Assembly: GCA_902798975.1 (NCBI GenBank)
Contig: CADBYT010000008.1
Coordinates: 1-64,000 of the forward strand
DNA length: 64,000 nt
Reading direction: 5' to 3'
From: an uncultured Bacteroidia bacterium
GTDB taxonomy: Bacteria > Bacteroidota > Bacteroidia > Bacteroidales > UBA932
Positions within the stretch are counted from its first letter, which is position 1; each line of letters begins with the position of its first letter. The position numbers were made by a program, and so were the translations under genes. Below, piece by piece: positions 5,678-23,400 of this stretch. Under the pieces are notes generated by a model. It searched no databases and was not told where the DNA came from. It saw nothing but the letters and a program-made list of their open reading frames with translations.

Positions 5678-8353
5678 TTATTTGGCGAGCGCTGCGGTAA
5701 TCTCTTCTGCAGCCAGCGCGATGGTCACGAGCTGCACCACGTTGCGTGTACAGCACTCGTTCTCCCCCCAGTGGAAAGGATAATCGTCCTTGTTCTCCAT
5801 GTAGTCCGGCGCCATCAGCAGCAGGCCCGGCGCCAGGCCGCCCGGGATGACGGTGTAGTCCGCCCGGTTGTTGCCGTAGGCCACTTTCTTGGTCTTGACG
5901 CCCACCGCCGTGATGAAAGACACGTTGCTGTAGGGATGGCAGCCGTAGAGGTAGTTCAGGCCGGCGAGCACGAGCTCGGGATCGATCGCATCCGGGAAAA
6001 GCTTCCAGACGGCGTAGCAGTTCAGCGCCCAGCCAAGGATCTGCTCGTTGCCGCCCCAGCTGCGGCCGGAGATAGGCACACCGTACGGCGTGCTCTCCGC
6101 CTGCTTCACCAGTCCTTCCACATACGCAGGCAGCGCCGCGCGCACCTGCGCCTGGAAATCGGCATCCATATCTTTATAGATGGCAAGCGCCGTGGACAGG
6201 TTGCCACCGCCGCGGCCAAAGCCACCCCACATGCCACCCATGTCTGAGAGGACCGGTCCCTGCGGGACTTCCACGCCCCGGGCCACACCCTGGCGACCGG
6301 CACCCGTCCAGGCACGATTCATCGCCGGCATCTCCACCGGCTTGATCTGGGCAAGCACCCGCGGCTCGAAGAAATCGCGGTACTTCTTCTCCCCCGTCGT
6401 CTTCCAGAGCTCGATGGCCGCGGAGACGCGGCCGTCGCCGAAGCCACCGAAGCCGCCGAAACCGCCCATGGCGTTGCGGGCAGGATCCGCCGCCTCGAAG
6501 TTCTCATCCCAGAGTTTCAGCGCATTGCGCAGCGAGCGCTCGGCCAGTTCGGGATTGTAGGGCTTCAGTACGCGGGCAGCAGCCGCCAGTGCGGCGATGG
6601 TGGACATCTGGCCAGCCGGATTGCCGCCGTTGGACGTGAAGGCGAAGCGGTCGTCGCGCGTGCCGGTGAACAGGCCGCGCTGCTCGTACGGCGCCAGCGA
6701 GGCGTCATAAACGAAGCCGTCGGTGATCGTGGAGGCGTCGCCAAGGTGGTGATACTGGTGCATCGTGCCCTGGACAATGCCCTGGGCCACGAAACCGATG
6801 TTCTCCACCTGCGCGTTGATGTTGAGCACGCCGTGCTCGCACTGCTGGATCACGTCGGGCACGCCGTCCGGGCGGTGGATGTCGACGAACTGCGTCTTCT
6901 GGTCGATATAGGTCTGGTCACGCTCGGGGCGGAACTCTTCCCAAAGGGTGGCGAACTGCTGCGTCAGGCCGATCACGGTACCGGACTGGATGTCGAAGTC
7001 GCCGGCGTCATACCAGGCACCGACAGCCAGGTTCGGAATGTGCTCGTAGGCCTTGTATTTCGTGTTCGTCTCGGGGCCCTGACGGTAACCGTCCATCTGC
7101 TCGTAGCCCGGAGGCGCCTGCAGGGCGTCGTCCATGTGGGAGCGTCCGTGCCAGATGCGATAGCCTTCGTTCACCTCCATGTGGTCCATCTGGACCGGCA
7201 GCCACACGTCCATCGTCGGATACCAGGTGCCGGCATAGACGTCCTTGTCGATCGGGAACGGATTGGTGCGGGTGCCCTTGTACTCGATGCAGTAGAGACC
7301 CGGCTCGCGCACGTCGGAGAAGTCCACGCGGGCGTAGTTGTAGCGGTGGTTGTACACGCCCCACTCCGTCACGCGGGCGTCCTTCGCCAGCTGGCGGGAA
7401 CCGTCCTCGGCGATGCGCCAGATGCGGGCCACCGGGGCGAGTGCGTCACGCTTGTCGAGCTCCAGCACGGCCACCTTCTTCTGGCCGGGCGTGTAGCCCA
7501 CCTGTGAGAAGCCGATGTTCGGTTTGCGGATCCAGTCGGGATTGTACGACGGCTGGACCGTCCACTCCACCACCTTGCCGGTCTTGCCGGCAGGCAGGAT
7601 GGTGCGGAGCACGAAGGTGCCGTTCTGGGCGAGGTTGCGTCCGTCGAAGAGCCGGATTTCGCTGTCCGAGCTCACCGCCACGCGCAGGTCGTCGTCTTCC
7701 GGCGCCATCACGAGCTTGTGGCCCGCCGCGAAGGGTTCCGGATCGATGAATTCCCCGCGGCCGCGGTCGTCGAAGGTCGAGAGACCGAAGAACTGCGGGA
7801 TCTTCTCGCTGACCGGACGCATTTCCGTATCGCCGGTCGGATAATTCGGGAGAATCAGGGACTTGCCGTCCACAAAGACCGTCTTGCCGTGGTAGCTGGC
7901 CGGGAAAAATTCGAAATTCAGGCCCGCCTTGCCTTCCAGCTTCGCCGGCACGGGCTCGTCCAGGTACACGCTGAGCGTGAAACCGGTCCCTTTGGCCGCC
8001 ACGACGATGCGCGGACGGAAGGTGTAGTCCGGGTACTCGAAGGTCATGTCCACGGACTGACGGGCGCGATCGACCTCGCGCTTGAGGATATCCGGATAGA
8101 TATCCCACTGCTCCGGCGTGTCCATCAGGCGGATGCCGCCGCCCGTGGCGATGCGCTCGCCGTGCTGGATCAGCTCCACGCCGGCGGTCTTCTCATCGCA
8201 GAACATGCCGTTGTACTGGTTGCTGTACACCAGCACGGAGACGCCGTTCTCCTCGAGGACTTCGAATTCATTGAGACGCAGTCCCTGGGCAGATGCAGCC
8301 GCGCAGAGGGCCAGCGCCGCGATGCCGGTCAGAAAGATTTTTTTGTTCATCAT
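5678..8353 (-). CDS. Glycoside hydrolase family 9 (endoglucanase-type) with N-terminal beta-sandwich domain
   Basis: An 891-residue exported protein with a signal peptide (MNKKIFLTGIAALALCAAASA). Residues to about 280 look like a beta-rich module, followed by a CelD_N-like Ig domain (IGFSQVGYTPGQKKVAVLEL, residues ~287-385). The GH9 (alpha/alpha)6 domain follows. The catalytic-base motif WYDAGDFD is at ~447-454 (Asp449/Asp452). GCHPYSNVSFITAVG and the C-terminal HWGENECC (proton donor Glu866) are also present. It probably cleaves beta-1,4 glucan or mixed-linkage glucan. Two unusual glycine-rich loops (GGFGGFGGFGDG, GGMWGGFGRGGG) lie in the catalytic domain. It is divergent from the recombinase gene and probably part of the neighbouring polysaccharide locus. 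Confidence 0.85.
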   Translation of the reverse strand: MMNKKIFLTGIAALALCAAASAQGLRLNEFEVLEENGVSVLVYSNQYNGMFCDEKTAGVELIQHGERIATGGGIRLMDTPEQWDIYPDILKREVDRARQSVDMTFEYPDYTFRPRIVVAAKGTGFTLSVYLDEPVPAKLEGKAGLNFEFFPASYHGKTVFVDGKSLILPNYPTGDTEMRPVSEKIPQFFGLSTFDDRGRGEFIDPEPFAAGHKLVMAPEDDDLRVAVSSDSEIRLFDGRNLAQNGTFVLRTILPAGKTGKVVEWTVQPSYNPDWIRKPNIGFSQVGYTPGQKKVAVLELDKRDALAPVARIWRIAEDGSRQLAKDARVTEWGVYNHRYNYARVDFSDVREPGLYCIEYKGTRTNPFPIDKDVYAGTWYPTMDVWLPVQMDHMEVNEGYRIWHGRSHMDDALQAPPGYEQMDGYRQGPETNTKYKAYEHIPNLAVGAWYDAGDFDIQSGTVIGLTQQFATLWEEFRPERDQTYIDQKTQFVDIHRPDGVPDVIQQCEHGVLNINAQVENIGFVAQGIVQGTMHQYHHLGDASTITDGFVYDASLAPYEQRGLFTGTRDDRFAFTSNGGNPAGQMSTIAALAAAARVLKPYNPELAERSLRNALKLWDENFEAADPARNAMGGFGGFGGFGDGRVSAAIELWKTTGEKKYRDFFEPRVLAQIKPVEMPAMNRAWTGAGRQGVARGVEVPQGPVLSDMGGMWGGFGRGGGNLSTALAIYKDMDADFQAQVRAALPAYVEGLVKQAESTPYGVPISGRSWGGNEQILGWALNCYAVWKLFPDAIDPELVLAGLNYLYGCHPYSNVSFITAVGVKTKKVAYGNNRADYTVIPGGLAPGLLLMAPDYMENKDDYPFHWGENECCTRNVVQLVTIALAAEEITAALAK

Positions 8354-8420: not shown

Positions 8421-9437
8421 ATGGTCCGTTCCTTTTTCTTCCGTTTCTTCGCGCTGACGCGAAAGCGGACTTCGCTCAACGATTATATCGCCCTGTACCT
8501 TAACCAAATCACCACCGGCGCACGCCAGACGGACCGGGGATGCAATTACTCCCCCTCCACCATCAAAAGCGTCCGCTATTCCCTCGGGCGTTTTGCAGCC
8601 TTCCAGCAGGAAGCACGCCGAGAATACGACTTCCGCCATATTGACATGGCATTCTACCACGACTACACCGCTTTTCTCAAGCGAAAAGAGTTGTCAATCA
8701 ACACCGTCGGGAAATGCATCCGCGACCTGAAAGTCGTCCTCCGAGCCGCGGAGGACGACGGGATCCATGTCTCGGCCGGATGGAAAGAACGACGATTCAA
8801 GGGCACCCGGATCGAGGTGGACAGCATCTACCTGACGCCAGACGACCTGGAGCGCATCCAGGCCGTAGACTGTACGGCTCTCGGCCCAAGGCGCGAGCTG
8901 GCGCGGGATATTTTCATGGTGGGCGTCTGGACCGCCCAGCGCATCTCGGACTACAACCACATCCGGCGAGAAGACGTCAATACCTTGATCCGCAACACGG
9001 CGACCGGAGAGTTGGAACAGATCACCTACCTCAACATCCGCCAGCAGAAGACCGGCGCCAAGGTATCCATTCCCTGCAACGCGGCCCTGCGGTCCATCCT
9101 GGAGAAGTACAGCTACCGTCTGCCGCACCTGCCGGACAAGGTCATCAACCGGTACATCAAGGAGATCGCCCGGGCTGCAGGGCTGACACAGCCCGTCGAA
9201 ATCGAGACCACCAAGGGCGGTACGCCCCGGAAAGAATGGTTTCCCAAGTGGCAGCTCGTCCACTCCCACACCGCCCGCCGTACGGGCGCCACGCTGATGT
9301 ACCTGGCCGGGGTGGACTTGTACGACATCATGAAAATCACCGGCCACACCACCCCGGCCATGCTCAGGAAATACATCAAGGCCGACTCCCTGGAGGTCGT
9401 CGAGAAGCTGACGGAGAAATATGACTACTTCCGCTAG
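8421..9437 (+). CDS. Tyrosine site-specific recombinase, candidate DNA invertase for the SusC/SusD switch
   Basis: A 338-residue tyrosine recombinase. The N-terminal SAM-like DNA-binding domain spans about residues 18-115, with the catalytic domain after about 138. The full catalytic set is visible: Arg174 (TAQRIS), Lys210 (QQKTGAK), His283 and Arg286 (HSHTARRTG), His309 (ITGHTTP) and Tyr318 (LRKYIK). It is shorter than typical ~400-residue Bacteroidota integrases of conjugative elements, because the arm-binding N-terminal region is missing, as in local invertases. It ends at TAG 9435-9437. The silent susC remnant begins at the next codon in the same reading frame. It lies just outside the inverted-repeat block, where an invertase of a SusC shufflon is expected. 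No att-bounded element surrounds it. Confidence 0.85.
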   Translation: MVRSFFFRFFALTRKRTSLNDYIALYLNQITTGARQTDRGCNYSPSTIKSVRYSLGRFAAFQQEARREYDFRHIDMAFYHDYTAFLKRKELSINTVGKCIRDLKVVLRAAEDDGIHVSAGWKERRFKGTRIEVDSIYLTPDDLERIQAVDCTALGPRRELARDIFMVGVWTAQRISDYNHIRREDVNTLIRNTATGELEQITYLNIRQQKTGAKVSIPCNAALRSILEKYSYRLPHLPDKVINRYIKEIARAAGLTQPVEIETTKGGTPRKEWFPKWQLVHSHTARRTGATLMYLAGVDLYDIMKITGHTTPAMLRKYIKADSLEVVEKLTEKYDYFR

Positions 9438-12413
9438 AGCCCCTTCCAGGGCACTTTCGGGCGTGGTGCCCCCGGCACCACGCTGGAGGTTTCCTGCATC
9501 GGCTACACCACTAAGCGCGTAGCTGCCGCCGCCAACATGGTCGTCGTCCTCGAGGATGACGCCGAAATGCTCGAAGAGACCGTGGTTATCGGTTACGGTG
9601 TGCAGAAGAAGAGCGACCTGACCGGTGCCGTGGCTTCGGTGCGTTCGGATGACCTGCAGAACCGTTCGACCTCCGATGCCGCTGCCGCCCTCCAGGGTAA
9701 GGCCGCCGGTGTCCGCGTCATCACGGACGGTTCCCCGGGATCCGGTGCAAAGATCCGTGTCCGCGGTTATGCGACCAACAACACCACGAATGCGGATGCG
9801 GTCCTTTCCCCGCTCTACATCGTGGACGGTCTGCAGGTGAGCAGCATCCAGTACCTGGATCCTTCCGTCATCGAGTCCATCGAGATCCTGAAGGACGCCG
9901 CCTCCGCTGCCATTTACGGCGCGCAGGCCGGTAACGGTGTCGTGCTCGTGACCACCAAGCAGGGACAGGAAGGCCACGCCTCCGTGACCTACTCCGGCAA
10001 GTTCACCATGCAGAATTACAGCAAGCGCCCCCTCATGAACCGTGAGGAATTCCTCGAGTACATGACCTACAAGGCTGGCGCCCAGGAGGTGACTGCAAAA
10101 CTGGCAGACAACGACTATTCGCATCCTTACTATACGGGCGGCGTCATCGATACCGACTGGATCGGTGCCTACATCGAGCCCAGCTGGAGCCAGCACCATT
10201 CCGTCAGCTTCTCCGGCGGTAACCGGAACGGCCACTTCTTCACCGCAATCAACTATGCGAACGAGAACGGCGTGGTCAAGGGCGACCAGGATGTTTACAA
10301 GCGCCTCACCGCCCAGGTGAACGCTGACTACAACCTCTTCAAGTGGCTCCAGGTCGGTGTCAACACCACCATCGAGAAGTGGGAGAGCAAGAGCGTTTCC
10401 CAGCGTGCATACGGTTCTTCTTTTGAGTCTCTGATCATCATCGATCCGCTCACCCCGGTGTACTGGACCTCTCCCGATGAGATGTCCACGACCGTGCGGA
10501 CGGCCTACAATTCCGTGGTGAACGGCACTTCCAAAATCGACTACACTTTCTTCGGTGATGAAAAAGGCTGGTTCGCCAACACCAAGTACGCCGATACAGA
10601 AGGTTCCCCGCTTGCCAAGCGCGATATCAACAAATACAACACCAATGGTGGCTTCAACATCAACGGAACCTTCTACGCCAACCTCATGCCCATCAAGGGC
10701 CTGACCATCACGTCCCGCCTGGGTTACCGTATCTGGCAGAGCGTGCAGCACAACTACGGTTTCCCGTACTACATCGGTGACCGCGGTAATAAATCCGACT
10801 TCTCCTTGAGTGCAACTGCGAACACCGGTTACTACTACCAGTGGGAGAACTTCGCGAACTACAACCGTACCTTCGGCAAACATGATTTCACTGTCATGGC
10901 CGGTATGTCCTACCGTGAGAACAACAGCGACAACGTTTCCGCCAGTGCTTCCGCCAGCCCCGGATCCGATGAGCCCACGCAACTGCTTCCGTCTTACGGA
11001 GAGAATTTCCGCTATCTGGACTTTGTTCTGGCCGAGGCCACCAAGAGCGTCGGAAACAGGCCGGGCAAGAGCGCTTCGCTCGCTTACTTCGGCCGTTTGA
11101 TCTACAGCTTTGACAACCGCTACACGTTCCAGGCCAACTTCCGCGCCGACGCGTTCGACTCCTCCAAGCTGCCCGCCGATAAGCGCTGGGGCTACTTCCC
11201 GTCCTTCTCCGCCGGCTGGACCATCAGCAACGAGCCGTTCTTCAAGAACAACGTGAGCCGCAATGCGGTCTCCTTCCTGAAGCTTCGCGTCTCCTGGGGT
11301 CTCAACGGTAACATCGCCGTCCTGAGCGGCTATCCTTACACCGCGACCATCGATCCCGGTAAGAGTTATTATCAGTACCATGTGGATCAGCTCGGAAGCG
11401 CCGTTGGCGCCGGCCCCACGAAACTTCCCAACTCCAACCTCTCCTGGGAGAAGTCCGAGCAGATTGACGCCGGTATCGATGCCCGTTTCCTGAACAACCG
11501 CCTGACCGTCGGTATCGACTACTTCAACAAGCAGACGAAAGACCTCCTCTTCAACGTTACAATTCCTGCCGAGCTCGGCTTCACTTCCGCTATCGCCAAC
11601 GGTGGTAACATCCTGAACGAGGGCTTGGAGTTCGAACTGGGTTGGAAGGACAGCGTCGGCGACTTCAGCTACGGCATCAGCGCCAACTTCTCCACCCTTC
11701 ATAATGAGGTGCTCTCGTTGGCCGAAGGCGCAACGCCTGAACGCCACAACAGAGCCAGCTCCACCAACATCCCGATCTACACCGTGTTCGAGCAGGGGCG
11801 CCCTCTGTGGTACTTGAGTGGTTATAATTTCAAGGGAGTTGACCCGGAAACCGGTAACTTTATCCTTGATGACACGAATGGTGATGGTAGTATTGATAAG
11901 GCTGATATGATTTATCTGGGCCAGACCACCCCGAGTTTCACCTACGGTATCAACATCAACCTCGCCTGGAAGGGTCTCGACTTTACCCTCTACGGCGCCG
12001 GTCAGGGCGGCAACTACATCATGCCCGTCACCTACCGTCCCGGCTTCAAGAATAACCTGAAATATGTTCTGAAGAATGCGTGGACGCCGGAGAACAAACA
12101 GGGAACCATGCCTAATCCGAAGTATCACGACGACCTCAATTTCTGGGCATCTTCCGGCAACCTCTTCAAGGGTGATTTCTTCCGCATCAAGCAGCTGCAG
12201 TTAGGTTATACCCTGCCGCAGAAATGGACGAAGAAGGTGGCCATCAGCAACCTCCGCGTCTATGTGTCGCTCGACGATTTCTTCACCTTTACGAGCTATT
12301 CTGGACTGGATCCGGAAACGGCTTCTGAGAACTCCTCTGATGGTATGGGCCTCGACTGGGGTTCCTATCCGACTATGCAGAAAGTCCTCTTTGGTGTCAA
12401 CGTGACCTTCTAA
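9438..12413 (+). CDS. Silent SusC-like TonB-dependent transporter cassette lacking promoter, signal peptide and N-terminal domain
   Basis: The frame is open from the codon after the recombinase stop; the first ATG is at 9537 (958 residues from there). The sequence starts within what is residue ~70 of the complete susC at 17054-20176. It has the end of the carboxypeptidase-like domain (PGTTLEVSCIGYTTKRV), the TonB-plug start (GYGVQKKSDLTGAV), the plug (LYIVDGLQVSSIQYLDPS, ILKDAASAAIYG) and the whole barrel ending in GVNVTF. There is no start codon with a signal peptide, no -7/-33 promoter and no secretion signal, so it should not make a functional outer-membrane protein in this orientation. 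Joined in frame at the 119-bp repeat to the other gene's first 69 codons, it would give a 1052-residue transporter. The barrel otherwise shows no frameshift, arguing for selection, not decay. Confidence 0.85.
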   Translation, partial: SPFQGTFGRGAPGTTLEVSCIGYTTKRVAAAANMVVVLEDDAEMLEETVVIGYGVQKKSDLTGAVASVRSDDLQNRSTSDAAAALQGKAAGVRVITDGSPGSGAKIRVRGYATNNTTNADAVLSPLYIVDGLQVSSIQYLDPSVIESIEILKDAASAAIYGAQAGNGVVLVTTKQGQEGHASVTYSGKFTMQNYSKRPLMNREEFLEYMTYKAGAQEVTAKLADNDYSHPYYTGGVIDTDWIGAYIEPSWSQHHSVSFSGGNRNGHFFTAINYANENGVVKGDQDVYKRLTAQVNADYNLFKWLQVGVNTTIEKWESKSVSQRAYGSSFESLIIIDPLTPVYWTSPDEMSTTVRTAYNSVVNGTSKIDYTFFGDEKGWFANTKYADTEGSPLAKRDINKYNTNGGFNINGTFYANLMPIKGLTITSRLGYRIWQSVQHNYGFPYYIGDRGNKSDFSLSATANTGYYYQWENFANYNRTFGKHDFTVMAGMSYRENNSDNVSASASASPGSDEPTQLLPSYGENFRYLDFVLAEATKSVGNRPGKSASLAYFGRLIYSFDNRYTFQANFRADAFDSSKLPADKRWGYFPSFSAGWTISNEPFFKNNVSRNAVSFLKLRVSWGLNGNIAVLSGYPYTATIDPGKSYYQYHVDQLGSAVGAGPTKLPNSNLSWEKSEQIDAGIDARFLNNRLTVGIDYFNKQTKDLLFNVTIPAELGFTSAIANGGNILNEGLEFELGWKDSVGDFSYGISANFSTLHNEVLSLAEGATPERHNRASSTNIPIYTVFEQGRPLWYLSGYNFKGVDPETGNFILDDTNGDGSIDKADMIYLGQTTPSFTYGININLAWKGLDFTLYGAGQGGNYIMPVTYRPGFKNNLKYVLKNAWTPENKQGTMPNPKYHDDLNFWASSGNLFKGDFFRIKQLQLGYTLPQKWTKKVAISNLRVYVSLDDFFTFTSYSGLDPETASENSSDGMGLDWGSYPTMQKVLFGVNVTF
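9462..9580 (+). repeat. Inverted repeat IR-L, candidate recombination block in silent susC
   Basis: 119 bp matching 19851-19969 in inverse orientation with only four differences (at 9466, 9479, 9512 and 9566). The longest identical runs are 32 bp (9480-9511) and 53 bp (9513-9565). Beyond 9580 the two susC genes fall to clearly lower identity, and upstream of 9462 only traces of similarity remain, so the block has fairly sharp edges. The reading frame is the same in both copies. Confidence 0.85.
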
Positions 12414-12428
12414 TCAATGCGATCCAAT

Positions 12429-14234
12429 ATGAAAAAAATATTTATTCCCATCCTGTTAGTGCTTGCTTTTGCAGCAGTCTCCTGCCAGCAGTTGCTTGAC
12501 ATCCCCCAGAAGGGAACCTTGAGTACACTCGAGTACTATGCCTCCGACTCCGATGCAGAAGCCGCACTCAACAACATGTATGCTGCTTATATCGACAATG
12601 TGGCAAACGCTATCGGTATTGACGTCGCTGAACAGGTTATTTTTAACTACTCCGCCGACGATGTTCTCGCCGCCGGTGGCCATGCCAACGACCACCCGGA
12701 TTTCCGTGTCTTCTGCGAATTCCGCTATGATGACATGAATGGTGAACTGAAGAACCTTTACGACGATTATTGCACCACTATCTATGCTGCCAACCTGGTG
12801 ATCTCCAACTTTACTACCGAGAACCGCAACGAAACTGCACCGAAGTGGGAAAGCGCCGTGACCAAACGCTGCGTGGCTGAGGCCCGCGTGATGCGTGCGT
12901 TCATCCATATGCAGATGGCCATCCTCTGGTATCAGCCGGCCATCATTAACCGCGTACTGGATCCAGACGAGCTTCCGGTCCAGGCCGAAAGCCAGTCCCA
13001 GGTGCTCGAGTGGGTCATCGCCGAGTGCGAGAAGGCCATCAACTCCGGTTCCCTGCCTGAGCGCGCGAGCAAGAACGACAAGGACGGTACTGCCATCATG
13101 ACCAAGGGCTTCGCCCAATTCGTCGCCGGCAAGGCCGCCATGTTCAACAACGATCCGGCTACCGCCCGCAAGTATCTCGGCGACCTGATCAACTCCGACA
13201 AGTATGACCTGGTCGCTCCTGAGGATTACTGGACCAACTTCCACGCGGCCGGCGACGGCAACTGCGAGAAGATCTTCGAGCCGAACTTCATCTACGACGC
13301 TACCGCCAGCTTCTGGGGCAATGTCGGCCGCAGCCGCTGGATGGTGGCCGACGTCTTCTGCTGGCGTACCGAGGATCTGTATTCCGTGCCGAACGTCTGC
13401 CCGGCGGCCGGCTGGAACGGCGGTGCTATCCAGGTGGACTTCGCCAAGAAGTTCCTGGAGCACGACGGTGACTCCCCGCGTCGTCTGGCTACCTTCATCA
13501 CCGAGGATGAGTGGCTGTATGAGATCAACTGGAAAGACTCCGAGCTTAACGACCGCACCCGTGCAGAGAAGGAGACGGATCCGAACCGCGGCATCAAAGG
13601 TACTGCCGGCATCTTCGGCCACGGCCCTTACTTTGAGTGGAAGAACATGTCCTTCGCTGAGGTTCCGAAGCTTCTGGCAGGCGACAAAGATTACCCGAGG
13701 GACAACGAGCCCGCAATCATGGGTGGTGCTTCCAATACCTCGAACTACAATGTCGCCCGTTATGCTGAGGCCCTGCTCCTCTATGCCGAGGCTTGCATCG
13801 ACAGCCCCGACGCTGCCAAGGGTCTCGAGGCCCTGCAGAAGGTTCAGAAGCGTTCCGGCTCCGGCAAGATCAGTGCTTCCCTCACCTTCAACGACGTGAT
13901 GGAGGAGAAGCAGTACGAACTCTGGTTCGAGAGCTGCCGCTTCCCTGATCTCGTCCGCTGGGCGAAACAGGGTAAAGTCAACTTGGACCAGATCTTCAAC
14001 GGCGACCTCCACAAGAAGTGCCCGATCGTGTACGACGAGTACTCTGCCAAGAATACTGGCAAGCATAAGCTCTACACCTCTTATGTCAACCTGAACGACG
14101 AACACAACTGCACCTTCGTCGTGAACAAGCACGAGTATCTCCCGTTCCCGGCTGACAGAGTTGCTGGCAACAAATTTAAGAATGTCCTTGGTTGGGCATA
14201 CTTGAATGCTGCCGAAGAACCGGCTGCTGAATAA
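12429..14234 (+). CDS. SusD-like nutrient-binding surface lipoprotein (silent cassette partner)
   Basis: A 601-residue SusD/RagB family lipoprotein. The signal peptide MKKIFIPILLVLAFAAVSC ends with the lipidated Cys and is followed by QQLLDIPQKG, the usual SusD opening. TPR-like helices typical of the family include ARVMRAFIHMQMA and ARYAEALLLYAEACI. The start at 12429 is chosen over 12417 because it places the lipoprotein signal at the N-terminus. It begins 15 bp after the silent susC stop. It is clearly paralogous to the SusD at 15217-17040, with long shared stretches such as LPVQAESQSQVLEWV. It binds glycan at the cell surface over its SusC pore, but has no visible promoter and presumably is expressed only after inversion. 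Confidence 0.85.
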   Translation: MKKIFIPILLVLAFAAVSCQQLLDIPQKGTLSTLEYYASDSDAEAALNNMYAAYIDNVANAIGIDVAEQVIFNYSADDVLAAGGHANDHPDFRVFCEFRYDDMNGELKNLYDDYCTTIYAANLVISNFTTENRNETAPKWESAVTKRCVAEARVMRAFIHMQMAILWYQPAIINRVLDPDELPVQAESQSQVLEWVIAECEKAINSGSLPERASKNDKDGTAIMTKGFAQFVAGKAAMFNNDPATARKYLGDLINSDKYDLVAPEDYWTNFHAAGDGNCEKIFEPNFIYDATASFWGNVGRSRWMVADVFCWRTEDLYSVPNVCPAAGWNGGAIQVDFAKKFLEHDGDSPRRLATFITEDEWLYEINWKDSELNDRTRAEKETDPNRGIKGTAGIFGHGPYFEWKNMSFAEVPKLLAGDKDYPRDNEPAIMGGASNTSNYNVARYAEALLLYAEACIDSPDAAKGLEALQKVQKRSGSGKISASLTFNDVMEEKQYELWFESCRFPDLVRWAKQGKVNLDQIFNGDLHKKCPIVYDEYSAKNTGKHKLYTSYVNLNDEHNCTFVVNKHEYLPFPADRVAGNKFKNVLGWAYLNAAEEPAAE

Positions 14235-14237
14235 GCC

Positions 14238-14306
14238 TATTCGTTCTACATACGAATAATTTGTTAGTGGTTGGGAGGCACCCCGTGAGGGCTGCCTCCC
14301 ATTTTT
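14238..14306 (+). terminator. 69-bp susD 3' terminator, copy 1 of a perfect inverted pair
   Basis: Immediately after the silent susD. It contains TATTCGTTCTACATACGAATA (a small hairpin) and then a strong hairpin GGGAGGCA..TGCCTCCC followed by a T run. All 69 bp are repeated, inverted, at 15138-15206. Confidence 0.85.
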
Positions 14307-14459
14307 TTATGTCAAATCGTATAAACTTGAAAGAAATCGCAAATACCCCCTGACGTTTCTTTCAGGTCCATGGAATTCCGGACTCTCTTCCGCATCTTTT
14401 CCGCATAATTATACGTTACTCGTCGCCCCCAATCCACCATTCACCGGCTATCATTTTTC

Positions 14460-14489
14460 CGTCATTCGCCGGCTTGACCGGCGAATCTC
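14460..14489 (-). repeat. Dispersed palindromic repeat family A, copy 2
   Basis: On the minus strand this reads GAGATTCGCCGGTCAAGCCG, continuing GCGAATGACG; a 30-bp hairpin of the same family as 5646-5676. Confidence 0.7.
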
Positions 14490-14490
14490 T

Positions 14491-14670
14491 ATTAACCCCA
14501 TAGAACACAAAGGATACGTCTATTTCGTTTCTAACCGTCGCAACACGGTCTTGTACATCGGCGTCACAAACAGCTTGAAACGCAGGGCTACTGAGCATTC
14601 GGAAGGCAGCGGCTCCCAGTTTACCAGCAAGTATAGATGCGGCAAGTTGGTTTACTATGAAGCCTTCCAA
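14491..14670 (+). pseudogene. Truncated GIY-YIG nuclease-family gene
   Basis: Sixty codons read NPIEHKGYVYFVSNRRNT followed by VLYIGVTNSLKRRATEH, the hallmark order of a GIY-YIG endonuclease domain (small UPF0213/YhbQ-like type). There is no usable ATG at the domain start. After YYEAFQ the frame runs into a copy of the susD terminator hairpin, so the second half of the domain is missing. It is probably a relic of a mobile or stand-alone nuclease gene that was overwritten by the terminator repeat. Confidence 0.65.
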
Positions 14671-14708
14671 AAAAATGGGAGGCAGCCTTCACGGGCTGCC
14701 TCCCATTT
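14671..14708. repeat. Third, partial copy of the susD terminator hairpin
   Basis: AAAAATGGGAGGCAGCC..GGCTGCCTCCCATTT, the same stem as the 69-bp terminators but without their AT-rich half. It interrupts the GIY-YIG relic. Confidence 0.7.
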
Positions 14709-15137
14709 AATACAAGAAGCCGCTTGGACAGCGGCTTCAGGGGAGCAAAGCTCCAATTAGGCGGACGAACGGGAAGCACCAGCCTACAGGGACTGATCTA
14801 GGTAACATTTAACGCCAAACCTGGCGCCAGTGAGCCTTCACGAATACCTTTTTGCCGTTGAGTACGCGCCAATGGCTACGTACACGAACGCGTCTGGCCC
14901 TTGTACCTTGTACAGATATGCCAACAAAGATCATCTTGGTTTTAAACATAATAAATGGAAATACAGGTAGGGATCTTGTGGGAAGAGCACATCACCCGTC
15001 TAGAGAAAAAGAAAGAGCATCATGCCTTTGTCGGAATGATGCTCTCGTAGTTTGTTTAAAACCAAAGCCGATAGTCGGCATCTATATTTCCACCGCAAAG
15101 GTAATGATTCCTGTGGAAAGAGCAAGCATTAGAGAAT

Positions 15138-15206
15138 AAAAATGGGAGGCAGCCCTCACGGGGTGCCTCCCAACCACTAACAAATTATTCGTATGTAGAA
15201 CGAATA
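15138..15206 (-). terminator. 69-bp susD 3' terminator, copy 2 of a perfect inverted pair
   Basis: Exact reverse complement of 14238-14306. It lies just past the stop of the expressed-orientation susD (15217) and ends in a T run on the minus strand. Confidence 0.85.
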
Positions 15207-15216
15207 TTTATTTCAA

Positions 15217-17040
15217 CTACTCTTCAGCAGGGTTGAGATATTCCCAACCGAGGACATCCTTCAGGTTCGGGTTACCGTTCTTGACGGTGTACGGGAACGG
15301 GAAGTACTTGTACTTATCTTCGAACTTGTTGAAGGTGACAGCAGAATAGGTCGTGAAGAGCTTGTGCTCCTTCTTGTAACCCGGCTTGCCCTCAGAGGTG
15401 AACTCATCGTAAACCGTAGGGACATGCGCGTGGATGCCACCGTAGCGATTGTTGAAGATGTCGTCAAGATTCACCTTGCCCTGGTTGGACCAGCGGACGA
15501 GGTCGAAGAAGCGGGTGTTCTCGAACCAGAGCTCATACTGCTTCTCATCCATCACATCCTGAAGCGTCAAGCTGGTGCTGATCTTGCCCTTGCCACCGTT
15601 CTCGGTGAAAGCAGCACGCTTCTGGACCTTCTGAAGAGCTTCAAGGCCCTTTGCTTCGTCGGAGGAACCGATGCAAGCCTCAGCATAGAGCAGGAGGGCC
15701 TCAGCATAACGGGCCACGGCGTAGTTCTTCTGGTTGGAGTTGGCAGCCTGGGCGTTGTCGGCGTGATAGCCGGGCTTGCCGCCCGTGAGAATCTTCGGCG
15801 GGTTGTGGTACACCATCATCTTCCACTCGAAGTAAGGACCGTGGCTGAAGATACCGGCGGCAATGATACCGCGCTTATCGTCGGCCTTCTTCTGATCGAG
15901 GGTACCGTCGTTGACCGTAGAGCCATCCCAATCCATCTCATAGAGGAATTCGTCCTCGGTGATGAAGGTAGCCTTACGACGCGGGGAGTCACCGTCATGC
16001 TCCAGGAACTTCTTGGCGAAGTCCTCCTGGATGGCACCACCGTTCCAGCCGCCACCGACACCCGGCATGTTGGCAACAACAGACGGAGTGGAAGCGAGGG
16101 AACCGGTACGCCAGCAGAGAACGTCAGCCACCATCCAGCGGCCACGCCACATGCCATTGTAGTCAGGATCAGCGATGTAGTTGGCCTCGAATATCTTCTC
16201 GGCATTGCCGTCGCCGTCAATATGGAAGTTGGTCCAGTACTCATCACTGTCAATCAGGTCGTACTTGCCGGAGTTGATGAGGGCGCCGAGATACTGGCGG
16301 GCCGTAGCAGGATCGTTGTTGAACATGGCAGCCTTGCCAGCCACGAACTGGGCGAAACCAACGGTCATGCGGGCGGTAGCGTCCTTGTCGGCCGTGCTGG
16401 CACGCACAGGGAGGAAACCGGAGTTGATGGCCTTGTTGCACTCGGAGATAACCCACTCGAGAACCTGAGACTGGCTTTCAGCCTGGACAGGGAGCTCGTC
16501 ACCTTCGAGGATACGGTCCACGATGTACGGACGGTTCCAGCAGAGAGCCATCATCATGTGGATGTAAGCACGCATCACGCGGGCTTCCTCGACGCACTGC
16601 TTCGTGAAATTGCTCGAGAACTTCGGCTCATCGCCATTGCGGTTCTCGTTGGAGAAGTTGGAGATGATGAAGTTGCAGGCGTAGATCACGGAAGCGTAGT
16701 TGTTGTACAGTCCGGCGAGGGCGCCGCTGAGCTGGTCATAACGGAACTCGCAGAAAATACGGAAATCACCGTGGTCGCCAGGGTCGCCGCCGGAAGCCAG
16801 CACGTCGTCAGCCGAATAGTTGAGAATCATCAGCTCAGGGACATAGATGTATCCGGTAGCACCGGCCACCTTGTCGCAGAAAGTAGCATACATGTTGGCC
16901 AGGGAAGCCTGGGCATCTGCATCGGACTCAAAGAAGTTGCTGTAGCTGATAACACCCTTCTGGGGGATATCAAGCAGGCCTTCGCAAGAAGTTGCGATCA
17001 GAGCAAGACCTAAGAGTATGGGGATAATGATCTTTTTCAT
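15217..17040 (-). CDS. SusD-like nutrient-binding surface lipoprotein (expressed-orientation cassette)
   Basis: A 607-residue SusD/RagB lipoprotein starting MKKIIIPILLGLALIATSC then EGLLDIPQKG. The start 12 nt downstream of another ATG is chosen because it gives a normal lipoprotein signal. Family features include the helical N-terminal half (ARVMRAYIHMMMA, FAQFVAGKAAMFNN) and a C-terminal ARYAEALLLYAEACIG. It starts 13 bp after the susC stop, forming the usual susC-susD operon. Compared with its paralogue at 12429-14234 the surface-exposed loops differ most, as expected for receptors with different glycan preferences. Confidence 0.9.
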   Translation of the reverse strand: MKKIIIPILLGLALIATSCEGLLDIPQKGVISYSNFFESDADAQASLANMYATFCDKVAGATGYIYVPELMILNYSADDVLASGGDPGDHGDFRIFCEFRYDQLSGALAGLYNNYASVIYACNFIISNFSNENRNGDEPKFSSNFTKQCVEEARVMRAYIHMMMALCWNRPYIVDRILEGDELPVQAESQSQVLEWVISECNKAINSGFLPVRASTADKDATARMTVGFAQFVAGKAAMFNNDPATARQYLGALINSGKYDLIDSDEYWTNFHIDGDGNAEKIFEANYIADPDYNGMWRGRWMVADVLCWRTGSLASTPSVVANMPGVGGGWNGGAIQEDFAKKFLEHDGDSPRRKATFITEDEFLYEMDWDGSTVNDGTLDQKKADDKRGIIAAGIFSHGPYFEWKMMVYHNPPKILTGGKPGYHADNAQAANSNQKNYAVARYAEALLLYAEACIGSSDEAKGLEALQKVQKRAAFTENGGKGKISTSLTLQDVMDEKQYELWFENTRFFDLVRWSNQGKVNLDDIFNNRYGGIHAHVPTVYDEFTSEGKPGYKKEHKLFTTYSAVTFNKFEDKYKYFPFPYTVKNGNPNLKDVLGWEYLNPAEE

Positions 17041-17053
17041 TGTGTAGTGCATT

Positions 17054-20000
17054 TTAGAAAGTCAGGTTAACACCAAAGACAACCTTCTGCATCGTCGGGT
17101 AGGAACCCCAGTCGAGGCCGGCACCGGAAGTATTGTTGGTAGAAGCCGTTTCCGGATCGAAACCAGGATACTTGGTGAAGGTGAAGAAGTCGTCGAGAGA
17201 GACGTAGAAGCGAAGGTTGCTGATCGCGATCTTCTTGGTCAGGCTCTGAGGCAGGGTGTAACCGAGCTGGAGCTGCTTGATGCGGAAGAAGCTGCCGTCG
17301 AAGAGGTTGCCGGTGGAGGACCAGAACGGAAGGTCGAAGGCGTAGATCTTGGAAGGATGAGGCATCGTGCCATTCTGATAGCCCTCGAGATAGACGCGGT
17401 AGTTGTTCTTGAAGCCGGTGCGGTGGGTGACAGGCAGGATGGAGTTGCCACCGATGCCAGCGCCGTAGACGGTGAAGTCAATGCCCTTCCAGGCGAGGTT
17501 GATATTGATACCGTAGGTAAACTTCGGAGTACCCTGGCCGATGTAGGTCATATCGGTCGGCTGAGGAGTCGTGGAGACCGTGCCGTCAGCGAGGCGGTAC
17601 AGAGGATCGCCGTTGGCGTCCATGCCCTCATAGATGTAACCCAGGAGGTACCAGATCGGATAACCCTTCTCGAAAGCCGTACCGATCTTGTAGTTCGTGG
17701 AGCTGGCATCGTAGTTCACGATGCGGCTGGCACGGTCGGCATAGCTCAGCACCTCGTTGTGCAGGGTGGAGAAGTTACCGGTGATGCTGTAGCTGAAGTC
17801 ACCGATGGTGTCTCTCCAACCGAGTTCGAACTCCCAACCGGAGTTGAGGACGCAACCACCGTTGACAGTGGACTTGGAAGCACCAAGCTCAGTCGGGGTG
17901 TCGATGTCGAAGATGAGGTCCTTCGTCTGCTTGTTGAAGTAGTCCACCGTGAAGGTGAGGCGGTTGTTGAAGAAGCGGGCGTCGAGACCGGCATCCCACT
18001 GCTCGGAGGTCTCCCACTTGAGGTTCGGGTTAGGCAGACCGCCGCCCAGGTTCGGGGCAGTAGAGTTGACGGAACCCTTCTCGTCGACGTGGTACTGATA
18101 CCAGTTGTTACCCACGGAGAGAACCGTATCGTACTTGTAGCCGCTCAGAACGTTGATGTTACCGTTGCGGCCCCAGGACACGCGGAGCTTCAGGAAGTTG
18201 AAGGTGCGGGGATCCAGGTTGTTCTTGAAGAACTTCTCGTTGCTGATGGTCCAGCCGGCGGAGAAGGAAGGGAAGTAACCCCAGCGGTTCGCCTTGGAAA
18301 GCTTGGAGGAGTCGAACGCATCGGCACGGAAGTTGGCCTGGAGGCTGTAGCGGTTGTCATAGCTCCAGATCAAACGGCCGAAGTAAGCCATGGAAGCGGA
18401 ACGGCCCGGGCTGTTGCTGATGGACTTGGTGATGCCATCGCCACTCAGCACGTAGCTCAGATAACGGAACTGCGGCTCCGGGGATTTAAGGATCGCAACA
18501 CCGGTCTCACCGCGTGCGGAACCCGTCACGTTGTCGCTATTGTTCTCACGATAGGACATACCGGCCATCGCAGTGAGGTTGTGCTTGCCAAGCTGCACGT
18601 TGTAGTTGGCGAAGTTCTCCCACTGATAGTAGAAGCTGGTGTTGGCGGTAGCGCTGATATCGTAGTAGTCACGGGAGCCACGACCAATATAATAAGGAGA
18701 GGTGTAGCTGTGAGAGTTGCTCTGGGAAATCCGGTAACCGAAGCGGGACGTGATGGTCAGGCCCTTGACCGGCTTGAAGTTGGCAAACAGGGTACCGTTG
18801 ATGTTGAAACCACCGTTGGTGCTGTCAGTAGCGTCGCGCTTGGCGAGCGGGCTACCTTCCACATCGGAGAAAGCGGTGCTGGCGAAGAAGCCGTTCTCGT
18901 CGCCGAGGAAGCGGTAAGGAGCATCGGCCGTGCCGGCCTGAACCTGATTGTACTTGTCGCGGAAGGCGGCAGGCATCTGATCGACAGTAGTCCAGTACAC
19001 CGGAGTCATCGGGTCGAGGTTGATCACGCTCTCGAAGGTGGAGGAGTAACCACGCTGGGAAACGCTCTTGGTCTCCCACTTCTCGATGGAGTTGTTCACA
19101 CCGACCTGCAACCACTTGAAGAGGTTGTAGTCAGCGTTCACCTGAGCCTGGAGTCTCTTGTAGACATCCTTGTCACCCTTCACGATACCGTTCTGGTTGA
19201 CGTAGTTGAGGGAGGTGAAGAAGTGGCCGTTCTTGTTACCGCCGGAGAAGCTGATGCTGTGCTGCTGGCTCCAGCTGGGCTCGGTGTAAGCGCCGAACCA
19301 ATCGGTATCGGTCTTGCCATCGTCGTAGGAATCAAGATAATCCTTCACGACAGAGTCACCCAACTCAAGACGGAGGTAGGTGAGGAGTTCGTCACGGTTC
19401 ATCAAGGGGCGCTTGCTGTAGCTCTGGAGGGTAGCCTTGCCGGTGTAGGTCACGGTAGCCTTGCCTTCAGAACCAGTCTTGGTGGTCACGAGGACGACAC
19501 CGTTGCCAGCCTGGGCACCGTAAATAGCAGCGGAAGCAGCGTCCTTCAAGACCTCGATGGACTCGATCATGGAAGGATCGATGTACTGGATGCTGCTCAC
19601 CTGCAGACCGTCAACGATGTACAGAGGTGCAACGTTGCCGGAGCTGGTGGTGTTGGAGGAATAACCGCGGACGCGGATCTCAGCACCGGAACCCGGAGAG
19701 CCGTTCGTCATAACGTGCACACCGGCAGCCTTGCCCTGGAGGGCGGCGGCGGCATCGGACGTCGACTGATTCTTCAGATCATCTGCACGCACGGAAGCCA
19801 CGGCACCGGTCAGGTCGCTCTTTTTCTGAACGCCATAACCGATAACCACCGTCTCTTCGAGCATCTCGGCGTCATCCTCGAGGACGACGACCATGTTGGC
19901 GGCGGCAGCTACGCGCTTGGTGGTGTAGCCGATGCAGGAAACCTCCAGCGTAGTGCCGGGGGCAACACGGATTTCGAAGTTACCGTCGAGATCCGTCTGA

Positions 20001-20176
20001 ACACCATTCGTGGTGCCGGGCACCAAAACGGCCGCGCCGATGACGCCAGCGTTGCTGGTATCAACGACCTTACCGCGAATGGCAGGATTCTGGGCAAGAG
20101 CTGAGCTCGTTCCCAAAAGACTCGCAGCAAAGATCATGACAATCGTTGCTGCCTTCGCAAACAGTTGTTTGGTCAT
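17054..20176 (-). CDS. SusC-like TonB-dependent outer-membrane transporter (expressed-orientation cassette)
   Basis: A 1040-residue complete SusC. Signal peptide MTKQLFAKAATIVMIFAASL..; carboxypeptidase-like regulatory domain about residues 30-105 (IRGKVVDTSNAGVIGAAVLV); TonB contact and plug about 110-230 (GYGVQKKSDLTGAV, LYIVDGLQVSSIQYIDPS); and a barrel ending in GVNLTF. It imports oligosaccharides with its SusD partner, powered by TonB. It has a promoter at 20238-20271. The first 69 codons plus promoter form the only expression site visible for either SusC, and the 119-bp block at 19851-19969 is shared with the silent gene. It is divergent from the hybrid two-component regulator, its likely activator. 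Confidence 0.92.
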   Translation of the reverse strand: MTKQLFAKAATIVMIFAASLLGTSSALAQNPAIRGKVVDTSNAGVIGAAVLVPGTTNGVQTDLDGNFEIRVAPGTTLEVSCIGYTTKRVAAAANMVVVLEDDAEMLEETVVIGYGVQKKSDLTGAVASVRADDLKNQSTSDAAAALQGKAAGVHVMTNGSPGSGAEIRVRGYSSNTTSSGNVAPLYIVDGLQVSSIQYIDPSMIESIEVLKDAASAAIYGAQAGNGVVLVTTKTGSEGKATVTYTGKATLQSYSKRPLMNRDELLTYLRLELGDSVVKDYLDSYDDGKTDTDWFGAYTEPSWSQQHSISFSGGNKNGHFFTSLNYVNQNGIVKGDKDVYKRLQAQVNADYNLFKWLQVGVNNSIEKWETKSVSQRGYSSTFESVINLDPMTPVYWTTVDQMPAAFRDKYNQVQAGTADAPYRFLGDENGFFASTAFSDVEGSPLAKRDATDSTNGGFNINGTLFANFKPVKGLTITSRFGYRISQSNSHSYTSPYYIGRGSRDYYDISATANTSFYYQWENFANYNVQLGKHNLTAMAGMSYRENNSDNVTGSARGETGVAILKSPEPQFRYLSYVLSGDGITKSISNSPGRSASMAYFGRLIWSYDNRYSLQANFRADAFDSSKLSKANRWGYFPSFSAGWTISNEKFFKNNLDPRTFNFLKLRVSWGRNGNINVLSGYKYDTVLSVGNNWYQYHVDEKGSVNSTAPNLGGGLPNPNLKWETSEQWDAGLDARFFNNRLTFTVDYFNKQTKDLIFDIDTPTELGASKSTVNGGCVLNSGWEFELGWRDTIGDFSYSITGNFSTLHNEVLSYADRASRIVNYDASSTNYKIGTAFEKGYPIWYLLGYIYEGMDANGDPLYRLADGTVSTTPQPTDMTYIGQGTPKFTYGININLAWKGIDFTVYGAGIGGNSILPVTHRTGFKNNYRVYLEGYQNGTMPHPSKIYAFDLPFWSSTGNLFDGSFFRIKQLQLGYTLPQSLTKKIAISNLRFYVSLDDFFTFTKYPGFDPETASTNNTSGAGLDWGSYPTMQKVVFGVNLTF
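19851..19969 (-). repeat. Inverted repeat IR-R, candidate recombination block in expressed susC
   Basis: Inverse copy of 9462-9580 with four mismatches in 119 bp. It lies within codons ~70-109 of susC, downstream of the signal peptide and most of the carboxypeptidase-like domain, so crossover here preserves the frame. Confidence 0.85.
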
Positions 20177-20237
20177 AGAATTAATAATATTTGGTTAAAA
20201 AGGGTTGCGGGCCCATGTCTGGAATACTCCAGTCATG

Positions 20238-20271
20238 CAAATATACGCTAAAGTTTGCATATTTGTTCAAA
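20238..20271 (-). promoter_or_regulatory. Promoter of the expressed susC with nearby inverted and direct repeats
   Basis: On the minus strand, -7 TATATTTG (20238-20245) with a TTTG at 20268-20271 (22-bp spacing, slightly long). The predicted leader is about 55 nt. Around it is an inverted pair ATGCAAA / TTTGCAT separated by about 12 bp. Upstream of the -33 are two direct copies of GATGCATT. These could be operator half-sites for the divergent regulator. Confidence 0.6.
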
Positions 20272-20404
20272 AAAGATGCATTTATTTTAAAAAATGATGC
20301 ATTGAGTTACTAAAAATTTTGATTAAGAGCCAAGTTTTACCCCGATAGGGCCCTGATTTTAAAGAATATTGGCTAACTTGCGTCCCGAAAGCAAAAGCGC
20401 CCAG

Positions 20405-23400
20405 ATGAGACGATTGTTACTCCCCTTCCTGCTGCTTGCAGGTCTGTCCGGCAGCCTTGCCCAGGCTGCACCTTATTATTATTTTGAGCACTACACGACC
20501 CACGAGGGTTTGCCCTCCAATACCATCCACTGCACCTTCCAGGACAGCTTCGGCTTCGTATGGATCGGCACGCGGGACGGCCTGACCCGTTTCGACGGTT
20601 ACGATTTCCGCAGTCCCGGCTCGCAGGCCCTCAACGACATCACCACCCTGTCCAGCATGGACATCGCCGAGGACGAAGACGGGCTCATCTGGTTCAGCAC
20701 CTCGGAAGGCGTGGGACGCTATGACCCCTACACCGGCACGACGGAGCGGATCGGAGGGCTGGGCGCCGGCGCGAGTTTCGACCTCCTGCCTGACAAGAAA
20801 GGCGGCATCTGGCTTACGGGCGACAAAATCTACCGCTACGACAAAGCCACGGAGGAAGTCAAATCCTACCCCACCGGCAACAGTTTCCCCCGCAAACTCG
20901 CCATCGACTCCTACGACGCCGTGTGGGCCATCATGGCGGATGGCAGCCTGTACAGCTACAACAAGCGGCGGGACAACTTCGAGGACACCCATTTCGCCTG
21001 GAAGCTGACGGACATCGAGTCCGCTTCGGACGGACTGCTGCTCGCCTCCACGACCGACGGGCAGGTGCTGCTCGTCGGGACCGTCAACCTCAACCTGACG
21101 GTCAGGAACATTTTCTCGCTCGGCGACCGGAAGGGCTATGAGATCGTACACATCCTGGAGCGCAAGGCGGGCGAATACTGGATCGGCACCAACTACGGCA
21201 TCTTCATCCAGAACCTGAATACCGGAGAGCTCACGCATATCCGCCACCTGGATGCTGACACGCACTCCCTCGCGGCCAACCTCATCACCAGCCTCGAAAA
21301 AGACCGCGACGGCAACGTCTGGGTCGGTACATATTATAATGGTATCAACATCTGGGAGGACAAGCAGGACGCGTTCTCGCTCTTCTATCCCAATCCGACC
21401 AAGAGTTCGATGATCGGCAACATCGTCCGCGCCATCACCAGCGATCCCGACGGAAACATCTGGTTCTGCACCGAGGACGGCGGATTGAACACCATCTCTG
21501 CGGACGGAAGCCGCAACGAGAGCTACGAACTCGTGCCGGGCCTCAACATGCAGGGCATCACCGCTGAAGGCAACGATCTCTGGATCCATACCTTCGGCAG
21601 CGGCGTGTACCGCTATGACCGCATCCGCCACAGCATACGGAAACAATATGATGTGCCGCGCTCTTCCGGCTGCGGCATCAGGACCGCGGACGGACGGCTC
21701 CTGACCGGCGGCCAGGGCAATCTCTTCGTCCTGGATCCCGAGCAGGACCGTTTCGTACCCGTCGAACCGGCCTGCCACGAATTCGTCCACTGCCTCTTCG
21801 AGGACAGCCGCGGCAATCTGTGGATCGGCACCTATGGCGACGGCTTCCTTTGCCGCGACAGCGGCGGAAACGGCCTCGCGCACCTGACTGTGGCTTCCGA
21901 CCGCGGCCTCACGGCCGACCGCATCACTTCCTTCTACGAAGACAGCCGGCACCGCATCTGGATCACCACCGAGGGCGGCGGCCTCTGCTATACGGACCCC
22001 AATCCCAATCTCTCCAACCTGCGGATCCATTCCCTGACACGCGCCGACGGTTTCACCAACAACGTGACCTGCGCCGTGGCGGAGGACGAAGACGGCATCC
22101 TGTGGGTGTCCACCACGCGCGGCATCGTGCACCTCGACGGGGAAACCCTCCGGATCCGGGGCTATATCCAGGACCAGCAGCAGATCATGGGCGCGCAGTT
22201 CTCCTACGGCGCGTCGCTCGTGACCCGCAGCGGCTACATCTTCCTGGGCAACACCCAGGGCCTGGCCGTCTTCTCGCCGGGCAAGATCAAGAAGGCCGCG
22301 CTGGACCATTCCCTCTTCATCACGAACATCGAAGCGAGCAACGCCGAACGCACCGTCCGCCTGCATGAAGACGGCCGGTCCACCCTCCGCACGGAGCGCA
22401 TCCGCATCAAGTCCCGCGACGTCTCCCTGCTGTCCATCAGCTTCGCCGCCCCCGATTATTCCATCTTCCGGCAGGTCTCCTATGCCTGGACCCTCCGCCG
22501 CGGCACGCGGGAATTCCTGTCCTCCCCTTCGACGGCGGAGAACAGCGCCAGTTTCTCCGGCCTGCGACCGGGACGCTATACCTTCGATGTGTCCATCGTC
22601 GGTTCGGAGGCGCCCGAAGCCCACAGGAGCCTGGAGCTCGACATCGAAGCCCCCGTCCTCTGGAGCAAGACCGCCAAGATCATTTACATCGTCCTCTTCC
22701 TCTCCCTGCTGGCCCTGTTCCTCCACGAGCTCGAGATGAAACGGAAGCGCGACCGCGCCCGTCACCTCTCCAAGATGGAGAACCAGAAGCAGAAAGAGAT
22801 CTACGACGCCAAGATCAACTTCTTCACCAACATCACGCACGAGATCCGCACCCCGCTGACCCTGATCAAGATGCCGCTCGACAAGCTGATCGACGAGCAC
22901 AACTATACGCCTGAATCCGAGAAGGACCTGCTGACCATCCAGGCCAACACCGACCGCCTGCTCAGCCTGACCAACCAGCTGCTCGACCTGCGCAAGATGG
23001 AGCAGAACGAAATCAAGCCCGTCTTCCTCAAGGAGGACCTCTGCGCCATCGTCCGCAAGTCCTGCCGTTATTTCGAGCAGATGGCCGAGGAGCAGAAGAT
23101 CACCCTGCAGGAGGATATTCCCGACCAGCCGTTCGAGGTGATGTGCGCCCGCGACGCCGTGGAGAAAATCATCAGCAACCTGCTCTCCAACGCCGTCAAA
23201 TACACGCAGGACAGCATCGAACTGTCGCTGAAGCCGTCCGCCGACGGCAAGACTGCCATCCTGCGCGTGGACAGCAACGGCGCCATGATTCCCGCGCGGG
23301 AGAGCGAGAAAATCTTCGAAGTATTCTATCAGGTCGGCGAGGAGCGCAAGAGCCAGGGCACCGGACTCGGACTGGCTTTCGCCCGCACCCTGGCCGGGCT

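Follow-up and report, generated by a model that had tools for sequence, protein, structure and literature searches.

A putative two-position SusC/SusD inversion switch with its own tyrosine recombinase in an uncultured Bacteroidales genome

When two susC-susD receptor gene pairs face one another, and only one of them has a promoter and a start, is the silent pair a leftover, a passenger or the second position of a switch? This question is raised by the window analysed here, which is the initial 64 kb of a 147,644-bp contig in the metagenome bin of an uncultured Bacteroidales bacterium (2.09 Mb in 39 contigs, 71% complete). We consider it likely that the locus is a two-position SusC/SusD shufflon, in which an adjacent recombinase would flip 10.5 kb such that cells express either pair A or a hybrid pair B.

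Two facing cassettes and a single head

Genes for an aminotransferase and a GH9 enzyme (both minus strand) are followed by those for a tyrosine recombinase, a headless susC (body B) and susD B (all plus strand), then by an 831-bp middle segment, susD A and the complete susC A (both minus strand), and an HTCS regulator (plus strand). The features are:

5678..8353, minus strand: GH9 glycoside hydrolase (Pfam), the conserved left flank
8421..9437, plus strand: tyrosine recombinase of 338 aa, limited to core-binding and catalytic domains (PF13102, PF00589)
9438/9462-12413, plus strand: frame of headless susC body B, 983 codons, without promoter, start or signal peptide
9461..9483, plus strand: candidate recombination site where the recombinase gene meets the headless susC, perfect 9-bp inverted arms around a 5-bp centre
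12417..14234, plus strand: susD B, 605 aa (PF07980)
14238..14306, plus strand: tail of cassette B, a 3' UTR that includes a terminator-like hairpin and has the same sequence as tail A
15138..15206, minus strand: tail of cassette A, identical to tail B
15217..17052, minus strand: susD A, 611 aa (PF07980)
17054..20176, minus strand: complete susC A, 1040 aa
17054..19969, minus strand: susC body A, currently attached to the head
19949..19969, minus strand: candidate partner site, at codons 70-76 of the complete susC, which shares the centre but has an imperfect left arm
19970..20222, minus strand: head, comprising the 5' UTR and susC codons 1-69, conserved between species at the locus
20238..20271, minus strand: Bacteroidota-type promoter of the head (TTTG, 22 nt, TATATTTG)
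20369..24307, plus strand: HTCS hybrid two-component regulator (Pfam), the conserved right flank, with orthologues at the same place

In each cassette a susC body is followed by its susD and a terminator-like tail, and the two cassettes lie tail to tail. Self-BLAST aligns them as one uninterrupted match in inverted orientation, 9462-14306 against 19969-15138, with 71.8% identity across 4972 columns; no other of the four self-matches at E<=1e-10 in the window is as long. Identity along this match is 96.6% at the outer end and 100% at the inner end, and about 70% in between. The outer repeats (9462-9580 and 19851-19969, inverted) agree at 115 of 119 bp and end abruptly, as the 60 bp immediately outside them match at 15/60, which is the level of chance; measured end to end, the outer sites span 10,508 bp. 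The inner inverted repeats, 69 bp each, mark the other end of each cassette; this second pair had escaped the original prediction. The encoded proteins are more divergent, with 663/963 residues identical between SusC A and SusC B (69%), and 382/588 aligned residues identical between the SusD proteins (65%). A chance repeat is ruled out by the rank of this match among the self-matches, and by the five other genome matches of the stretch 9400-9620 being short and less similar (about 47-144 bp long, at 68-84%).

The segment that separates the tails (14307-15137) differs in composition, with a GC content of 47% versus 59%. The terminator hairpin occurs in it for a third time (14671-14705), and its minus strand has a short basic frame. 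The frame remnant in this segment we take, from its motif, to be GIY-YIG-like. Searches for Rfam families in 8300-20500 found none. Elsewhere in the window, the 3' end of the aminotransferase gene (4289-4457) contains a 97-bp tandem repeat (96% identical), and a 540-bp direct repeat (67%) lies near the right end (58128-60144).

Only the gene beside the HTCS regulator appears equipped for expression. The head holds a signal-peptide-like start, as read from the sequence, and the initial part of a CarboxypepD_reg-like domain (PF13715, residues 33-111), for which Pfam finds a match in susC A but not in B; body B matches TIGR04056 only from profile position 43 onward (E 2.8e-224). The promoter of the head is one of four strict Bacteroidota-promoter matches in a scan of the 64 kb, which found none ahead of body B or the recombinase. 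The -7 consensus TAnnTTTG is as given in PMC4747536. Sigma-70-type promoter patterns matched 11 times in 8300-20500, against a shuffled mean of 6.4, and none of these precedes body B on the plus strand. Joined to the 69 codons of the head, body B would give a frame of 1052 codons with zero internal stops.

Selection on the headless pair was assessed by comparing branch lengths at the first two codon positions with those at third positions, across nine sequences (889 susC and 559 susD codons, with the first 60 aligned susC columns dropped). The susC ratio was 0.339 for B and 0.460 for A, the others spanning 0.147-0.715; the susD ratio was 0.203 for B and 0.224 for A, the others spanning 0.075-0.277. 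Overall omega was 0.125 for susC and 0.114 for susD. By these comparisons of aligned codons, selection on the headless pair is not relaxed, although a very recent loss of its head would look alike. A decaying pseudogene is accordingly unsupported by the branch ratios, except for one beheaded too recently for the test to detect.

Much of the original prediction was thereby reproduced: the open reading frames of the two facing pairs are located as it described, one susC having the promoter and start while the other begins at codon 70; its 119-bp inverted block of about 97% identity has flanks that match only at the level of chance; and its hybrid receptor of 1052 aa is in frame and free of stops. 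Its reading of the intact silent frame as a mark of continued selection agrees with the unrelaxed ratios of B.

The recombinase and its candidate sites

The headless susC begins at codon 70, 24 bp behind the recombinase gene. The encoded enzyme has the R-K-HxxR-H-Y set of a tyrosine recombinase, at R174, K210, H283, R286, H309 and Y318 (roles by analogy), which corresponds to the RKHRH pentad plus tyrosine named in PMC8138268. Its frame is open, it keeps 66 of 68 columns that are near-invariant in 19 relatives, and its branch ratio of 0.076, at saturated third positions, is inside the range of those relatives. The original prediction of a complete recombinase stands in these respects; it fails for the arm-binding region, as 18 residues precede the core in the window enzyme, and 11 in that of genome G310, versus 57-144 in 30 of the 33 sequences compared, the last of which (from G210) is cut by a contig end. 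Lacking the arm region of its relatives, the window recombinase may be inactive. Its initial residues resemble the native start of the relatives, hence an internal in-frame loss is likelier than a 5' truncation by rearrangement.

Homologues of this enzyme at E<=1e-60 occur in 43 of 400 genomes of the genus, including its own, and the best of the matches there that cover the full core have 60-66% identity. In the stretches fetched, most members of the family are without susC, which counts against the switch: 37 of 39 fetched stretches with a homologue (L142-L180), and 13 of 14 in another set, are free of susC, the exceptions being the G348 and G310 stretches in the first set and L022, again the G348 locus, in the second, although several stretches were short or ended by contig ends. 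Elsewhere the family resembles the integrases of mobile elements (PHROG 1, integrase), with a 35%-identical relative on a prophage-like plasmid, and, in two recombinase stretches, tested neighbours that include McrBC-type or AAA_14 genes. The top-listed phage record, MT836782.1, has a recombinase with an arm region and no match to the susC queries. A PDB sequence search with the recombinase returned no match. The predicted structure (mean pLDDT 70, pTM 0.52) gave 36 Foldseek matches at E<=0.001, including XerA and Tn1549 Int (best E 1.6e-6), which add little given query TM-scores of only 0.19-0.27. Within the family, the recombinases at L019 5297-6709, L021 9650-11062 and L020 680-2092 have nearly identical cores, and the arm region of the L020 enzyme clearly differs from those of the other two, as if its arm domain had been exchanged. 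Genome G019 (L024 9977-13673) has two related recombinase genes near each other, one of them shortened.

The candidate site at the join of recombinase and headless susC is one of 17 places in the 64 kb with perfect 8-bp arms (spacer 3-8); such a palindrome is common by itself, yet its location is telling. At the partner site in susC A the centre is kept, as is the right arm except for one base. Allowing up to two mismatches, the pattern occurs in the whole bin solely at the two susC junctions, but a reversed control pattern also has three matches, hence the rarity of the pattern alone proves little. Moreover, the stretch at codons 70-76 is also present in the susC of G148, which has no recombinase in its fetched stretch, and may therefore be ordinary coding sequence. 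The candidate site was absent from viral contigs. The motif AGTYYYN4GDACT, reportedly that of the Bacteroides fragilis recombinase Tsr0667 in the original 2009 paper, has no exact occurrence in the 64 kb and 20 one-mismatch places (chance mean 11.4), none of them at either junction, which separates this locus from the Tsr0667 regulon.

These elements suggest how the switch would operate. A single fixed promoter and head, comprising the 5' UTR, signal peptide and codons 1-69, would serve as the expression site beside the HTCS regulator gene. The recombinase, which we infer to be the agent of an ongoing inversion, would recombine two matching sites, one at codon 70 of the joined susC and the other where the headless susC begins. 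As the sites are in inverted orientation, recombination between them would flip the 10.5-kb segment. The silent body would then lie in frame under the head as a hybrid of 1052 aa, and the other body would be parked headless behind the recombinase. The two receptors presumably differ in ligand.

The locus in related genomes

The order HTCS - susC - susD - (GH43/GH9) - aminotransferase is conserved in the genus. The instances, with the genome in brackets, are:

L093 (G148): conserved locus
L232 (G137): conserved locus
L233 (G190): conserved locus
L234 (G363): conserved locus
L235 (G240): conserved locus
L238 (G058): conserved locus
L022/L177 (G348): conserved locus, rearranged

The first six fetched stretches gave no recombinase match. 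The GH9 orthologues at the locus in G148, G348 and G363 are 80-90% identical. In G148 susD and GH9 are adjacent; in the window an extra cassette separates susD A from GH9. Two further genomes differ: in G217 (L094) the flanks are present without susC and susD, and in G405 (L237 6841-7341) the head runs through deletions into a susD remnant, with edges away from the candidate site according to a reading of the translation. In G363 (L234 6834-16764) and G240 (L235 6303-16249), two tandem susC-susD pairs lie at the locus, each with a related head, which is another way of holding two receptors.

The head is conserved between species. A 293-bp head query matched 26 of 400 genomes at E<=1e-8, including its own, with 95% identity in G148 and 84-90% in five further genomes. 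Along the gene, window A and G148 agree at 98, 96 and 93% from -40 to +210, and at 86, 81, 74, 59 and 60% beyond, the bodies being 59-60% identical at +601..1100. Over the same interval the bodies of G148, G137, G190, G363b and G240b are 75-98% alike, and window A is 56-63% identical to them. The bodies of the second class at the locus (G240a, G363a, G120, G058 and G348) are only 59-71% identical to window A at +601..1100, hence they are not the source of body A either. In the SusC tree, bodies A and B group with bodies from paralogous loci, apart from those of G148 and G348, the two bodies of relatives at the locus that the tree held. A conserved head over a body so divergent from the mutually similar bodies of relatives indicates a body swap: judged by these alignments, the window lineage received a body from elsewhere under its native head. 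At the other end of the cassette, the 69-bp tail occurs in three of 200 genomes (its own, G120 and G217), the G120 copy being 99% identical and lying behind a G348-class susD, beside the same aminotransferase. No genome was found with body B under the head, in collections that hold one genome per species.

A parallel arrangement occurs in G310. Its 6,338-bp contig C12 (L179) carries susD, a headless susC and an arm-less 305-aa recombinase, all on the minus strand, and beyond the recombinase a divergent AT-rich upstream region and a plus-strand susC head. The recombinase lies about 60 bp in front of the headless end of susC and is 44% identical to the window enzyme. Both ends of C12 bear the same 101-bp head start in inverted orientation, the left-end copy lying directly behind the susD hairpin with a different upstream sequence. 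Two further contigs, C60 and C9, are identical over their initial 101 bp, which correspond to a later part of a head; their matches to the headless susC start from base 102/103, and each body is then followed by a susD. The 101 bp recurring at these contig ends are probably the overlap of the assembler, and we infer a join between the two head parts, which are non-overlapping. A shufflon with three or more bodies would be expected to yield such contigs when assembled from short reads.

The recombinase tree keeps the window and G310 enzymes on branches apart, with starred support, hence the arm region was probably lost twice, the placement of G310 being less sure owing to its long branch. The sister of the window enzyme (95/88 support) is the recombinase at the G348 locus, which has its arm region. 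This gene (L022 9662-10945) is missing a conserved internal stretch in which the HxxR histidine lay, and is fused in frame at its C-terminus to a susD tail. It is a decayed relic, and suggests that there, too, a second cassette once accompanied a recombinase.

Competing readings and relation to known systems

An inversion switch, as originally predicted, remains the best reading of the locus, given the body swapped under a native head, the silent pair without relaxed selection, the recombinase with 66 of 68 conserved columns and the parallel case in G310; the anatomy and intact frames of the window add to these. The competing explanations overlap with it in probability, and are not mutually exclusive.

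The most persistent, though unlikely, is that inversion or conversion is the work of general homologous recombination at the repeats of 119 and 69 bp, with the recombinase as a bystander from a mobile element. The identity does not stop at a short core but continues for 119 bp past the supposed site, the two 69-bp tails match exactly and have a near-identical copy in G120, and bodies vary at the locus in relatives without a recombinase in the fetched stretch. Furthermore, codons 70-200 are fairly conserved in all compared susC genes (67-98%), hence ordinary homologous recombination could account for earlier body swaps. Several observations weigh against a bystander. Firstly, the recombinase is joined to a susC-susD set in all three cases found. 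Secondly, it lies directly before the headless end in two of them, the window and G310. Thirdly, a palindrome marks the join in the window. Fourthly, a bystander recombinase would be expected to decay.

Somewhat less likely still is a locked relic, in which the recombinase of a former switch became inactive when its arm region disappeared, leaving the headless pair as a recent and undecayed remainder. The missing arm region and the lack of a strict promoter ahead of the recombinase would fit such a history, and the G348 enzyme, clearly broken by the loss of its HxxR histidine and its fusion to a susD remnant, demonstrates that decay does occur at this locus. The window recombinase, however, retains an open frame, its conserved columns and a branch ratio typical of its relatives, within the limits of saturated third positions, and the G310 enzyme is also arm-less in the same architecture. 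Nor need an arm region be essential, as known switch recombinases such as FimB comprise core-binding and catalytic domains only. Simple tyrosine recombinases in general are described as having this composition in PMC8138268.

It is improbable that the recombinase and headless pair are instead an integrating cassette inserted within susC, whose role would be to import receptor genes rather than to flip them. This would account for the phage-integrase annotation of the family and its relative on a prophage-like plasmid, for the extra cassette between genes that are neighbours in G148, and for the grouping of bodies A and B with those of other loci. Yet sites inverted within one locus would yield inversion, with no excision, and the arm regions that PMC8138268 presents as typical of integrating elements are absent from both recombinases found with a headless susC. 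Finally, an assembly artefact is very improbable: misassembly is a known risk with inverted repeats, and the bin is fragmentary, but for most of their length the arms share only about 70% identity and so cannot be collapsed copies, the flanks (aminotransferase-GH9 and HTCS) match the gene order of relatives, and the contig extends over 147 kb.

If the switch is real, it extends SusC/SusD switching from B. fragilis to a large uncultured gut genus, and the locus illustrates how such a system could arise from an integrase and a second receptor pair. Its comparative signature, a conserved head and tail around a foreign body, can be searched for without reads. A more tentative proposal, possible but on balance doubtful, is that a mobile-element integrase has become a dedicated receptor-switching invertase at least twice in the genus through loss of the arm, and that the head and tail act as a docking port through which cassettes of SusC body and SusD are exchanged between loci and species. 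According to PMC8138268, mobile integrases were made by gain of the arm domain; in the window enzyme the domain seems to have been lost, opposite to that gain, and were this loss causal, it would reverse the published direction.

Among open-licence papers, no title or opening of an abstract reported an invertible susC in rumen Bacteroidales or phase variation in Cryptobacteroides. SusC/SusD switching is itself already known from B. fragilis, and the probable novelty here lies in the lineage, the crossing at codon 70 and the possession of an enzyme of integrase type.

Promoter invertons such as those of Tsr19 and Mpi in B. fragilis are short segments. These tyrosine (Tsr19) and serine (Mpi) invertases control surface molecules (PMC4747536) by flipping promoters, whereas in the window gene bodies would flip under a fixed promoter. 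Relative to the arm-binding tyrosine integrases of Bacteroidales, the window enzyme has the same Pfam domains and the core identity given above, but both it and the G310 enzyme are without the N-terminal arm region. The closest likeness is to the SusC/SusD shufflons of B. fragilis, in which repeats that overlap the start codon of susC place one pair or another downstream of an invertible promoter (PMC5729914), and of which three clusters are described as controlled by Tsr0667 (PMC4747536, PMC11852207); SusC/SusD inversions also feature in a review (PMC12632263) and a metagenome study (PMC10939037). As in the intergenic shufflons of region EE and the Tsr0667 clusters, where several susC/ragA-susD pairs share one expression site (PMC5729914, PMC4747536, PMC11852207), the window has two pairs with a promoter and start on only one. 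As there, too, a large segment is bounded by inverted repeats, located 5' in each susC, and a tyrosine recombinase is present; inversion of the segment, which we propose on the likeness of structure, would give a full-length receptor in frame. The locus nevertheless departs from this model in two respects: its site is at codon 70 and would hence generate a hybrid protein under a fixed promoter, and, unlike Tsr0667, described as serving many loci, its recombinase is joined to the silent cassette and descends from integrases.
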